Source: Lachnospiraceae bacterium P6A3 (GTDB lineage Bacteria; Bacillota; Clostridia; Lachnospirales; Lachnospiraceae). From it: DNA of 64,000 nt. The stretch lies in contig JNKP01000004.1 in assembly GCA_000702085.1 (NCBI GenBank), positions 1 to 64,000 on the forward strand, written 5' to 3'. The position numbers were made by a program, and so were the translations under genes. Position 1 is the first letter of the stretch. The number at the start of each line of letters is the position of its first letter. The notes below the pieces were generated by a model. That model saw only the letters and a list, made by a program, of their open reading frames with translations, was not told where the DNA came from and did not search any database. Positions 7,300 to 18,622 of this stretch are shown one piece after another.

Positions 7300-7971
7300 T
7301 CAGCCCACTTTTTCCTCGGTCAAATGACCATTTTCCATTCTGTACAGAATATCGGCCCTTTCTTCCACATGACTGTCATGTGTTATCAAAAGTATTCCTT
7401 TTCCTTCGTCAGCCTGTTTTCTGAAAGCATCCATGATCCTTGATGCATTTTCAGGATCAAGCTCTCCGGTGGGTTCATCTGCGAAAATATAATCATGATC
7501 TCCGGATATTGCCCTTACAACAGCTGCTCTCTTCATTTCTCCGCCTGACAGTGAGCTGGGAAATACATCCATAAGGTCTTCTATTCCCAGATCCTTAATA
7601 TAAAATGCCAGCCTTTCTTCATCAGCTGCTCCTCCGGAAAAACTCTGCTGAAGCTTTATATTCTCCCGCACGGTAAGACCGCCTATAAGACTCTGTACCT
7701 GAGGAACAATTCCTATCTTTTCTCCGCGGATTTTATCCCTCTCTTTGTTTTTAAGGCATGGCAGTTCCACATCATCGATATGCACCGTCCCGTTCTCGGG
7801 AACTATCATTCCCGCAAGGATATTTAAAAGAGTGCTTTTCCCACTTCCCGAATTTCCCGTAACAACGGTAATCTTACCCCTTGGGATTGATATACTTACA
7901 TCATCCACAGCCCGGAAAGTTTTTCCCCGTCTTTCATATTCTTTTGTTATGTTCACGGATTCAATTGACAT
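7300..7971 (-). CDS. MacB/LolD-type ABC transporter ATP-binding protein
   Basis: A 223-residue ATPase with Walker A TGNSGSGKST, Q-loop PQVQSLIGG, signature LSGGEMKR, Walker B YIFADEPTGELDP and switch His in LLITHDSH. The FADEPTG form of Walker B is typical of the MacB/LolD/FtsE group, whose partners are FtsX-type permeases; one is encoded one base upstream. It is the last gene of the nitrogenase-like operon. Such pairs do not import small solutes with a binding protein; they usually act on lipoproteins, peptides or envelope substrates by mechanotransmission. Its role here is unknown. Confidence 0.88.
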   Translation of the reverse strand: MSIESVNITKEYERRGKTFRAVDDVSISIPRGKITVVTGNSGSGKSTLLNILAGMIVPENGTVHIDDVELPCLKNKERDKIRGEKIGIVPQVQSLIGGLTVRENIKLQQSFSGGAADEERLAFYIKDLGIEDLMDVFPSSLSGGEMKRAAVVRAISGDHDYIFADEPTGELDPENASRIMDAFRKQADEGKGILLITHDSHVEERADILYRMENGHLTEEKVG

Positions 7972-7972
7972 A

Positions 7973-9178
7973 TCAGTTTTCTCCGTCCCTCATAAGAACA
8001 TAGCAATCCGTCTTTCCGGCTTTCGCTCCGGCGATGATGCCGGGAAGAGCTCCGCTTATTAAAGTGATCAGAATTGATAACAGCGATACTTTGATAATAC
8101 CGGGCAGGCCGGGGCCATAATAAGGAAGGCCTATTGCGTCGGCTACATTTACGCTGAAAGGAAAAACAGCCAGTGATGCCAGAATTATTCCAAGAACCGC
8201 TCCGGCACACGACATGATGATATTCTCAAGAAGTATAAGTCTGAGTATCCAGCTTTCGGATGCGCCCATCATTCTGAGAACCGCCCATTCCTTTCGTCTG
8301 GCATTTACACGGAATACACTCAGTATTGCCGTTACCAGTGTGACTATAATTTCCATAATCCATGTTATGATCGTCAGTATTTTGGAGATTATTCCGATTC
8401 CGTCCGTAACGGAAGAAATCATATTCTTGCTCTGTACAACACTTACAAGACTGTTTCTTGATATTCTACCCGCGATGACATCAGCATCCGCACCGTCTTC
8501 CACACGTATAAGAAATGCGGATACATATCTGTCCGTAATACCGGCATCCGAGCCATCTCCGAATTCTATACCCTTCTCACGTGCATCTGCAATCATCTGT
8601 TCCATAACATCAAATGTTACATAAACAGACTTATCCATTCCGGTTCCGGTTCTGTTCAGCCTGGCTTTTACATCATACGTTCTTCCGAAAAATGTCAGAG
8701 TATTATTTCCGTCAAGCGCAATGTTTGCTCCCGCTATCAGATCTCCGTTTCCAAGCTGAAGTGAATAATCCTCTGAAATCCACGGTGATGTTACAAAATC
8801 AGTTTCAGGATCATATCCGATTATCTGAATCGGGACACTGCAGCAGGATGCATTTAGGCTTGCCAGATATATGACCGGCGTTACCTCTTCAATTCCGTCC
8901 ATCGAACGGAGTTCATCCTCCAGGCTTCTGTCCATCGAACACTCAACCGGTTCTCCGCTAAGCAATATTCCCTGATAGCCGGTTTCGGAGCCCTTGGGAA
9001 CAACGGCTATATCCGCGCCCAGCCTCTCCCGAAGATTTCCCAACCCTCTTGTAAGACTTGTGTCGAGTATACGTCCCGCAAATACGGTAAAAGATAAGAG
9101 AAGTGCAAACAGAAAAACTGCAGATCCTCCGATCGAACCGTATATCAGTTTTTTTAATGCTACTTCTCTTATCTTCAA
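7973..9178 (-). CDS. FtsX/MacB-type ABC transporter permease
   Basis: A 401-residue membrane protein: one N-terminal membrane helix (about 12-35), a large extracytoplasmic domain (about 40-265) and three C-terminal helices, as in MacB-type permeases. The external domain has an adjacent cysteine pair in ASLNASCCSVPIQIIGYDPE and another cysteine in EPVECSMD, which could bind metal or form disulfides. Translation appears to begin at a TTG codon with only a moderate AAGGTA ribosome site. It sits 7 bases after the DUF4418 gene and one base before its ATPase. DUF4418 proteins and this type of permease recur together in Clostridia, as I recall; the substrate is not known. Confidence 0.82.
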   Translation of the reverse strand: MKIREVALKKLIYGSIGGSAVFLFALLLSFTVFAGRILDTSLTRGLGNLRERLGADIAVVPKGSETGYQGILLSGEPVECSMDRSLEDELRSMDGIEEVTPVIYLASLNASCCSVPIQIIGYDPETDFVTSPWISEDYSLQLGNGDLIAGANIALDGNNTLTFFGRTYDVKARLNRTGTGMDKSVYVTFDVMEQMIADAREKGIEFGDGSDAGITDRYVSAFLIRVEDGADADVIAGRISRNSLVSVVQSKNMISSVTDGIGIISKILTIITWIMEIIVTLVTAILSVFRVNARRKEWAVLRMMGASESWILRLILLENIIMSCAGAVLGIILASLAVFPFSVNVADAIGLPYYGPGLPGIIKVSLLSILITLISGALPGIIAGAKAGKTDCYVLMRDGEN

Positions 9179-9185
9179 ATTCTTT

Positions 9186-17316: not shown

Positions 17317-17346
17317 TTCTTTATCTCCTTATCCCTTACACATTTT

Positions 17347-17760
17347 TTATTCTTCATCTTCTATCCCGTAATCGCGGAGTAGTTTTTTTGCTTTTTCCAA
17401 TCGGAGCCTTTTCTTATCCCTATAATCTCTTACCTTAGCTATGGCTTCATCGATCGGTCCTACATGGTCCAGTGTTATGATATTTTTCCTTGCAAGAGCC
17501 TGTGATGCTCTCCCTCCTGTTCTTGCAGCGAGCACAAACTCAACATCAGATAACTGATCGGCAATCTCCTCAAATGCCTTATCTCCACCGCAGGTTGCGC
17601 CCTTGCAGGCCGTCTGATCTATATCCCTGAATGCGGAATCTATGATCTCTCCGGATTCCGAATCAACTTCAAACACAACAAATTTGTCCGTATGTCCGAA
17701 ATGGGAATCCACATTTATCTCGTCTGTTGTAGCTACGGCAATCCTGAATGTATCACCCAT
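17347..17760 (-). CDS. NifX/NafY-like cofactor-binding protein
   Basis: A 137-residue protein with a dinitrogenase iron-molybdenum cofactor-binding domain (about 5-105): RIAVATTDEINVDSHFGHTD is the family signature, with HFGHTDKF at 20-27. It also has two cysteines (C52, C57) in TACKGATCGG, and a charged helical tail. Such proteins carry NifB-cofactor or FeMo-cofactor, or bind other Fe-S clusters. In many NifB proteins this domain is fused to the radical SAM domain; here it is a separate gene overlapping the NifB-like gene by 8 bases. It is likely the carrier from the NifB-like enzyme to the D/K apo-complex. Confidence 0.85.
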   Translation of the reverse strand: MGDTFRIAVATTDEINVDSHFGHTDKFVVFEVDSESGEIIDSAFRDIDQTACKGATCGGDKAFEEIADQLSDVEFVLAARTGGRASQALARKNIITLDHVGPIDEAIAKVRDYRDKKRLRLEKAKKLLRDYGIEDEE

Positions 17761-18622
17761 GTGAAAATGTCTCCTTTACATTAAGTCTGCCTTTATAAAG
17801 AGAAGCACCTATGTCATATACACCGGGGACTCCGCAGGCATCAGCTCTGCAGTGCTGGCAATGCCTGAATACGTTTATATATATTTCCGCATCCGATCTT
17901 GCTTTATACAGCTCTTCGCATGTCGGTGCCGATAGATCTTTCATCTCATTCTGAGGTATCAGTGGAATAATGTTGTAGATTGATGCACCTGCTGTCTTTA
18001 CGGTAGCCGCGACATCTTCTATATGCTTATCATTTATTCCCGGTATCAAAACCGTATTTACTTTGACCAGTGTTCCTGCTTTCGATACTTTTCTGATTCC
18101 CGACAGCTGATTCTTTATAAGGATCTCCGCAGCTTCGGTTCCCGTGTAGATCTTGCCGTGGTATGAGATCCTGTTATTGATCTTTGCTTCGATTTCCGGA
18201 TCCACCGCATTTACCGTAACCGTGAGTGTATCTATCAGTTCGATCACTTCATCTGCTTTTTCATCAAGCAGCAGTCCGTTTGTGCTCATGCACTTTATAA
18301 GCTTCGGATACTTGTCTTTGATCAGCCTGAATGTCTTCAGCGCACGATCCGTTGCAAGTGTATCTCCGGGACCCGCGATTCCGACCACTGTTATCTCCGG
18401 GCATTTCTCAAGTGCCAGATCAATGAAGTGTGCGGCTTCTTCCGGTTCAAGCACCGTGCTTGTTACTCCGGGTCTTTGTTCATCATCATTGATCTTCCTG
18501 TCGCAGAATCTGCATTCTATATTGCAGCCGGGCGCTACAGGCAGATGAATTCGTCCTTTATTCTGTTTGCATGGTCCAAAGCACGGATGTTCTTTGAAGA
18601 CCGTTTCGCGATCCAGAGCCAT
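17753..18622 (-). CDS. NifB-like radical SAM cofactor maturase
   Basis: A roughly 289-residue radical SAM enzyme. From the ATG at 18620-18622 (7 bases from GAGAGG; an ATG at 18628 is too close), the order is: HPCFGPC (C14, C18) near the N-terminus, the CX3CX2C motif CNIECRFC (C33, C37, C40), GIAGPGDTLA, and the C-terminal HCQHCRADACG. The last resembles the CxxCRADA motif of NifB. In NifB, extra cysteines and a histidine hold two 4Fe-4S clusters that are fused with carbide into NifB-co. Retention of all these elements indicates that the D/K enzyme uses a NifB-co-derived cluster. First gene of the tightly packed 12-gene operon. Confidence 0.9.
   Translation of the reverse strand: MALDRETVFKEHPCFGPCKQNKGRIHLPVAPGCNIECRFCDRKINDDEQRPGVTSTVLEPEEAAHFIDLALEKCPEITVVGIAGPGDTLATDRALKTFRLIKDKYPKLIKCMSTNGLLLDEKADEVIELIDTLTVTVNAVDPEIEAKINNRISYHGKIYTGTEAAEILIKNQLSGIRKVSKAGTLVKVNTVLIPGINDKHIEDVAATVKTAGASIYNIIPLIPQNEMKDLSAPTCEELYKARSDAEIYINVFRHCQHCRADACGVPGVYDIGASLYKGRLNVKETFSHG

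Follow-up and report, generated by a model that had tools for sequence, protein, structure and literature searches.

A twelve-gene operon of Lachnospiraceae bacterium P6A3, a relative of rumen Butyrivibrio, is, on balance, best read as a sulfur-scavenging system: it would import an organosulfur compound, reduce it in an ATP-driven reaction at an [Fe8S9C]-type cluster, release sulfide and capture it through the cysteine synthase CysK, all under the control of a LysR-type regulator. The operon lies on the minus strand of the first 64,000 nucleotides of contig JNKP01000004.1 (the window), where twelve co-directional open reading frames (ORFs) run from 18628 to 7300. Sulfide, and not methanethiol or sulfite, is the probable product of the reaction. 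An earlier note on this DNA, made from its letters alone, had proposed that "sulfide or thiol" is fixed as cysteine; the choice narrows toward sulfide, since the model match of CysK is canonical and a family search turned up no sulfite reductase in the host. The core of that note, a Mar-related reductase other than nitrogenase working in sulfur assimilation, is supported by the tree, the ligands, the recurrent CysK and the sulfur genes near several relatives.

In the proposed pathway, an ATP-binding cassette (ABC) importer whose binding protein offers soft Cys/His ligands would take up a small sulfur compound. The motifs of NflB and NflX suggest that these two proteins assemble and deliver an [Fe8S9C]-type cluster. 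Conserved ligands further suggest that ATP-driven NflH feeds electrons through the P-cluster of NflDK to this cluster, which would cut the sulfur off as sulfide. CysK would then join sulfide to O-acetylserine to give cysteine, an activity well supported by its family, and its coupling to the reductase is a putative further step. The LysR protein would probably turn the operon on under sulfur shortage.

Judged from sequence, the D and K subunits of this operon are not nitrogenase. Both NflD (12590..14125) and NflK (14134..15480) belong to PF00148 and score far under the cut-off of every listed nif, vnf, anf and bch model. The best solved relatives are subunits of methylthio-alkane reductase (Mar), MarD for NflD (PDB 9fmg, E 3.4e-48) and MarK for NflK (PDB 9d9u_C, E 1.4e-60), which bears out the earlier naming of the two genes. 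The structure model of NflD, with a predicted local distance difference test (pLDDT) score of 92, has 9fmg_A as its best fold at a template modeling (TM) score of 0.83 by query length and a root-mean-square deviation of 2.8; the nitrogenase chains listed in the same search reached TM 0.65-0.72.

A scan of genome contigs, one genome per species, counted 169 relatives, of which the best 80 were taken. The D tree holds 65 proteins, representatives of 121 at <72% identity, from a set that excludes rows shorter than 430 residues, L141 and L092; L105 has no full-length D ORF. Its outgroup of five rows comprises a NifD, two NifE, a VnfD and an unnamed component 1 protein beside VnfDK that was labelled VnfE, with AnfD absent. 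In this tree the window D falls within a 40-row clade (support 98/93); Mar forms a clade of its own with 17 rows (100/99), and NifD, NifE and VnfD also lie elsewhere. This cysK clade is a well-supported sister to Mar, and the operon is predicted to work in a Mar-like way but from a separate lineage. The clade spans Bacillota, Synergistota, Spirochaetota, Fusobacteriota and Geobacteraceae, which makes the description "clostridial" too narrow. The best 80 include relatives from Lachnospiraceae, Oscillospiraceae, Peptococcaceae, Paenibacillaceae, Pelosinus, Synergistaceae, Treponema, Fusobacteriaceae and Geobacteraceae. Several record titles name rumen samples, and many other metagenome-assembled genomes (MAGs) are, as we take it from their isolate codes, of termite-gut origin.

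The ligand pattern supports a putative [Fe8S9C]-type enzyme with a pocket of its own. The equivalent of the NifD cofactor ligand Cys275 is present in 40/40 clade rows, the three P-cluster Cys of D in every clade row having a letter there, one row being truncated, and the three of K, which NflK shares, in 79/79 clade rows with a letter, of 80 rows. A loop-I His aligned with the Mar ligand His429 is likewise found in 40/40. The pair Arg428-His429 has been described as the hallmark of Mar (PMC12552129); Arg428 is deleted in 40/40 clade rows, and the Mar clade has Arg in 17/17 rows and Arg-His in 15/17. The Mar Phe199 position holds Tyr in 40/40 clade rows. Of the nitrogenase residues, NifD Arg359 is retained in 40/40 rows, the His442 equivalent is absent from 40/40 (F in the window D), and the His195 position is Tyr in 40/40, the window D included. 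In the column shared by NifD Gln191 and MarD Trp195, the window D has Val; four clade rows have Gln there and two have Trp.

Two further characters set the clade apart, with membership taken from the tree or the best BLAST representative and with duplicate stretches removed. A CxxHDDY motif starting at the cofactor Cys occurs in 81/82 clade members, 0/22 Mar-clade proteins and 0/10 other D proteins. K precedes D for 72 of 81 clade genes (D before K in 2, no adjacent K in 7), and D precedes K in 20/21 cases in the Mar clade. Some D proteins fell elsewhere. Those of L035 (G077) and L036 (G039) lie near cysK and keep the Cys ligands, lack the loop-I His and belong to neither main clade. In L038 (G059), from the host's own family, the D at 11462 has the Cys88-type ligand alone and no Cys275 equivalent, near the published Isr pattern. 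On plasmid pTS2 of Treponema saccharophilum (L140), two pairs of nitrogenase component 1 genes are accompanied by NifX-like genes and an ABC importer.

The recurrent partner of this enzyme is cysteine synthase. The operon gene cysK (15491..16441) matches the cysteine synthase A model TIGR01139 with 434.8 bits (cut-off 350.95), and two further CysK-like genes occur in the host genome at 59% and 45% identity to it. In 61/80 loci, many of them truncated, a same-strand cysK is found no more than 5 kb from D; among the 37 loci whose flanks reach 5 kb or more on either side, 32 have it. Where K comes before D, the cysK end is within 300 bases of K in 45/76. A same-strand MetY is equally near to D in 4/80 loci. 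Of 11 loci whose D is Mar-type or near-Mar and that have no D of the cysK clade, 6 have MetY and 1 has cysK within 5 kb; three of these loci are <10 kb, L139 falls narrowly outside the Mar clade, and L040 was assigned from its Arg-His motif. PatB-type C-S lyase genes adjoin L050, L066 and L072, and L050 also has a cystathionine gamma-synthase/lyase-type gene. A Mar-clade D shares the stretch in 10/80 loci, an arrangement that would make a route in two steps from methyl-sulfides to cysteine possible.

No route through sulfite was detected in the host by family search. Its genome is 2.98 Mb and 99% complete; family searches found neither NIR_SIR (sulfite reductase; 11/14 controls positive) nor PAPS_reduct (14/14 controls positive). 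A CysE-like gene scores 163 bits, under the strict cut-off of 210.65 that 8/14 controls pass. Three genomes, G027, Butyrivibrio hungatei (G143) and G144, show the host's pattern for all three families. Among 31 same-genus genomes, several of them 70-90% complete, an Nfl D occurs in 10 (7 of the cysK clade; 3 Mar-type, G019 and G020 by tree and G010 by Arg-His motif) and NIR_SIR in 14, with an overlap of 0. NIR_SIR is thus present in 0/10 Nfl genomes and 14/21 others (Fisher p 4.6e-4, uncorrected for kinship).

The first ORF, nflB (17753..18628), encodes a NifB-type radical SAM protein of 291 aa without a NifX domain; it reaches 273 bits with TIGR01290 (cut-off 343.65), covers profile positions 9-277 of 441, and has the motifs HPCF, CxxxCxxC and CxxCRADAxG. 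The operon start given earlier, 18622, is the second ATG inside this ORF. A NifX/NafY-like putative cluster carrier of 137 aa, nflX (17347..17760), follows (PF02579, 57.1 bits) and matches TIGR01290 positions 328-438. The Fe-protein-like ATP-dependent reductase nflH (16459..17316) has a P-loop and Cys99/Cys134 and passes the curated nifH model TIGR01287 with 454 bits (cut-off 394), so automatic annotation would call a nitrogenase iron protein at this place. It is the only close NifH-type gene of the host, other matches having 23-38% identity. The whole genome holds two PF00148 genes, both inside the operon, and NifEN is therefore absent from the host. A whole-genome search for NifEN or a second close NifH found none, and we reject that candidate.

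Two NifH lineages serve the cysK clade. A quick H tree, with long branches and few starred forks, was used solely for the existence of these lineages and groups the window H with the H of Mar-type loci. Beyond close relatives, H identity is 43-51% in most clade members and 76-78% in L078, L094, L095, L099 and L125. An exchange of the reductase component seems to have taken place.

Three genes encode the importer: an NMT1-type substrate-binding lipoprotein (11444..12565; PF13379/PF09084, with the lipoprotein call from an N-terminal LLTGC read by eye), a permease (10400..11428; PF00528) and an ATPase (9609..10403). All stay under the cut-offs (in brackets) of the Tau/Ssu models, with SsuA at 55.5 (163.5), TauB at 233 (357) and TauC at 81.4 (342) bits, and of the Sao models, with SaoX at 18.6 (300), SaoP at 103.3 (295) and SaoA at 272.3 (360) bits; the permease matches of SaoP, NtrB and TauC type all fall short of the cut-off. 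The earlier label "TauABC-like" stands as a statement about fold; the organosulfur ligand that it implied is not identified by this class. In the binding protein, Cys86, His153, Cys156, Cys259 and Cys260 are invariant in 29/29 close Nfl binding proteins. Distant ones have His153 in 14/14 and each Cys in 11/14. The set is absent from three desulfinase-type binding proteins, and that of R. hungatei (L097) keeps Cys86 alone. The Cys/His set suggests a soft ligand, either a sulfur compound or a metal(loid).

Several observations weigh against the sulfur-scavenging reading. The genus-level alternation weakens when cysK-clade genomes alone are counted (7/31; p 0.0087, uncorrected for kinship), and NIR_SIR is present in 8/12 clade-bearing genomes that were picked, so lacking sulfite reductase characterizes the host's group and not the clade. 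The linkage of cysK has exceptions: 5/37 well-flanked loci have no nearby cysK at the cut-off (L088, L096, L103, L112, L123), of which L088 shows a cysK stretch at a laxer cut-off and L112 has cysK just past 5 kb. The modeled binding-protein fold (pLDDT 87) names no ligand; searches of solved structures and folds identified none, and the fold class also binds sulfonates, nitrate, bicarbonate, pyrimidines, thiamin precursors and PQQ. With its four conserved Cys, the binding protein could have a metal(loid) as cargo. Finally, a group IV enzyme of Endomicrobium proavitum is reported to fix N2 (PMC11257099, PMC8399215), and our D tree has no Endomicrobium sequence.

We allow a small chance that the operon encodes a true or near Mar, cleaving methylthio-alkanes to methanethiol for methionine synthesis: MarDK is the closest solved relative, the window H is from the lineage used by Mar-type loci, and Mar-type D occurs in the three same-genus genomes named above. 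However, the window D sits in a separate clade in which Arg428 is deleted, Trp195 replaced in 38/40 rows and Phe199 changed to Tyr, and its partner gene is CysK, with MetY near so few loci. The chance is smaller that CysK supplies cysteine sulfur for building the large Fe-S cluster, the enzyme substrate then needing no sulfur. In some nif clusters cysE1 plays just this role, and the position of cysK next to K would suit cofactor supply too. Mar-type and near-Mar loci, expected to have like cluster needs, carry cysK in that 1 case of 11, three of them <10 kb; moreover, 0/12 operon genes are NifS- or NifU-like, and transsulfuration genes lie near some relatives.

Less probable still is an importer for a thiophilic metal(loid) or organometal compound, with the reductase acting on this cargo or using the metal. 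The invariant Cys/His set would fit it, and among curated models the permease and ATPase score best with subunits of Sao, the Sec-assisted organometallic system (PMC13188914), but these scores are under the Sao cut-offs, and CysK and the transsulfuration neighbors indicate sulfur. A sulfonate reductase that releases sulfite, like the isethionate reductase IsrBHDK, is very improbable despite the TauABC/SsuABC-like importer class and the SsuCAB plus NflBHDK set used by Isr (PMC11423573). According to the same source IsrD has one of the three Cys and no Cys275, and IsrB is NifB-like in the radical-SAM motif only; the window has all of these features, and a family search of its host gave no sulfite reductase. 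We give the least credence to N2 fixation by a group IV nitrogenase, the activity reported for E. proavitum, even though NflH passes the nifH cut-off. With two PF00148 genes in the genome there is no NifEN, and NifD His442 and His195 are absent from 40/40 clade rows and Gln191 from 36/40. In addition, the nifHDK-like genes of P. sabinae were not regulated by ammonium and did not complement nifH or nifD mutants; the passage describes them as lacking a Cys275 equivalent, and they may fall outside the cysK clade (PMC4246453).

Within the sulfur-scavenging reading, it is tempting to go further. Tentatively, the operon could represent a third class of [Fe8S9C]-cluster enzyme, a reductive desulfurase that is fed by the Cys4-His importer, frees sulfide from thiols or other soft-sulfur compounds and replaces the sulfite-reductase route in anaerobes. 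The substrate might possibly even be methanethiol, giving methane and sulfide. If true, a widespread branch of the nitrogenase superfamily acquires a function, and the sulfur supply of anaerobes without sulfate or sulfite reduction is explained. More than one active-site design would then use large Fe-S clusters for sulfur chemistry, and a NifH that passes the standard nifH model would be a false flag for nitrogen fixation. The exact 12-gene unit occurs in three relatives, Lachnospiraceae AC2028 (L047), Butyrivibrio hungatei DSM 14810 (L050) and MAG RGIG9232 (L049), and the copy in L048 is cut by a contig end. Since B. hungatei DSM 14810, a cultured rumen strain, carries the full unit, the idea is testable in culture.

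The layout of the operon agrees with the earlier description of twelve co-directional genes with gaps of at most 30 bases: the intergenic distances are, in operon order, -8, 30, 17, 10, 8, 24, 15, -4, 12, 7 and 1 bases. A LysR-type gene (6327..7223, minus strand; PF00126 and PF03466) starts 76 bases past the operon, and its product is the probable regulator. A LysR match lies within 8 kb of D in 5/80 relatives (L047, L048, L050, L062, L083). The gene is followed on its 3' side by a terminator-like hairpin (6307-6278, minus strand), a consensus match only, with a 12-pair stem and a T-rich tail; the region has 8 terminator-like matches against a mean of 9.9 in shuffles, and thus no excess. Control by a riboswitch or T-box was rejected, as the window has no Rfam match at gathering scores. 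Beyond LysR lie the two flanking importers that had been called methionine-type (3453-6178) and cystine-type (885-3291); models of these kinds do come out on top, but 6/6 proteins are under the curated cut-off. On the other side, a small ORF of about 72 codons (18735-18953, minus strand) sits between a Cof-type hydrolase gene and nflB; it resembles the cut-off start of a LanC-type protein by eye only and has no Pfam match. A serpin-family protein (PF00079, 253 bits) is encoded at 21255-22595, about 2.6 kb upstream of the operon. The serpin family is rare in bacteria.

The operon ends, also on the minus strand, with a DUF4418 membrane protein (9186..9596; PF14387, 103.8 bits), an FtsX-type permease (7973..9178; PF02687) and a LolD/MacB-type ATPase (7300..7971; PF00005, with the LolD and MacB models under cut-off). 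DUF4418 exceeds its family cut-off in 12/143 relatives, 5 times in Nfl loci (G000, G021, G027, G034, G039), 6 times near a DszB-like gene and once near neither (G108). In G005, G006, G009, G015, G026 and G029 it stands with FtsX, the ATPase, an NMT1-type importer and a DszB-related protein. The G015 protein matches PDB 2de2 at E 1e-20 and the other five are linked to it by 73-90% identity; the G005 desulfinase gene is split across contig ends. A link between DUF4418 and Nfl at genome level was rejected (5/35 Nfl genomes vs 8/108 others at E 0.001, the 8 including one under the family cut-off); where the gene sits says more. Eight same-genus genomes have DszB-like matches, at 39-100% identity and with G003 the weakest. 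NIR_SIR is present in 8/8 of these, on the same contig and 3 to 10 kb from the DszB-like gene, which is adjoined by MetY-type, ThiF and JAB genes (in G005 by Pfam, in others by eye). A DszB-like gene at E <1e-12 occurs in 0/106 fetched stretches, namely 100 Nfl loci with some duplicates and six plasmid stretches, and in the genus the Nfl and DszB-like genomes have no overlap (p 0.032). We read the DUF4418-FtsX-ATPase trio plus NMT1-type importer as a single transport chassis that carries two alternative desulfurizing engines. DszB-like desulfinases with an ABC importer, in L147, L148, L149, L150, L151, L152 and L155, are a second organosulfur route in the genus; several of these stretches also have sulfite reductase, TusA-like (by eye), ThiF, JAB and MetY-type genes.

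How this operon stands to known systems also decides what in it is new. The nfl-cysK link is not, having reached print in 2012 and 2023. Dos Santos 2012 tied Cys275-bearing Nfl genes to cysteine synthase or O-acetylhomoserine sulfhydrylase (PMC3464626), the cysteine-synthase link appears in a termite-gut spirochete (PMC13067680), and CysK has been described together with group IV-A genes that neighbor mlp gene clusters (PMC10418091). The earlier claim of an undescribed unit is overstated in regard to this link. For the CxxHDDY signature, the Cys4-His binding protein and the alternation with sulfite reductase we found no description in the open-access literature searched, the motif itself not being used as a search term. 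The published cysK-linked group IV genes share Cys275 and the adjoining cysteine synthase with our clade, probably overlap with it, and do not have these three features named in the passages cited (PMC3464626, PMC10418091). The mlp setting recurs in R. hungatei L097, which has genes for MtaA-like methyltransferases, a corrinoid protein and a corrinoid activator.

The Mar system of Rhodospirillum rubrum (MarBHDK; PDB 9FMG) has the nearest fold and the same NifB-, H-, D- and K-type proteins, along with the six P-cluster Cys, the cofactor Cys and the loop-I His. The window clade differs in its deleted Arg428, its CxxHDDY, Tyr in place of Phe199, the replaced Trp195 (38/40), an Arg at the NifD Arg359 position, the usual order of K before D, and CysK nearby instead of MetY. 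Isr of Rhodobacter capsulatus likewise combines an Nfl enzyme with an SsuABC-type importer for sulfur assimilation, but its IsrD has one P-cluster Cys and no Cys275, its IsrB is NifB-like in the radical-SAM motif only, and its product is sulfite (PMC11423573). The DszB-type desulfinase loci of the host's genus share the DUF4418-FtsX-ATPase trio and the NMT1-type ABC importer with the operon; there, a desulfinase-like protein and sulfite reductase replace Nfl and CysK, and the three binding proteins checked are without the Cys/His set.

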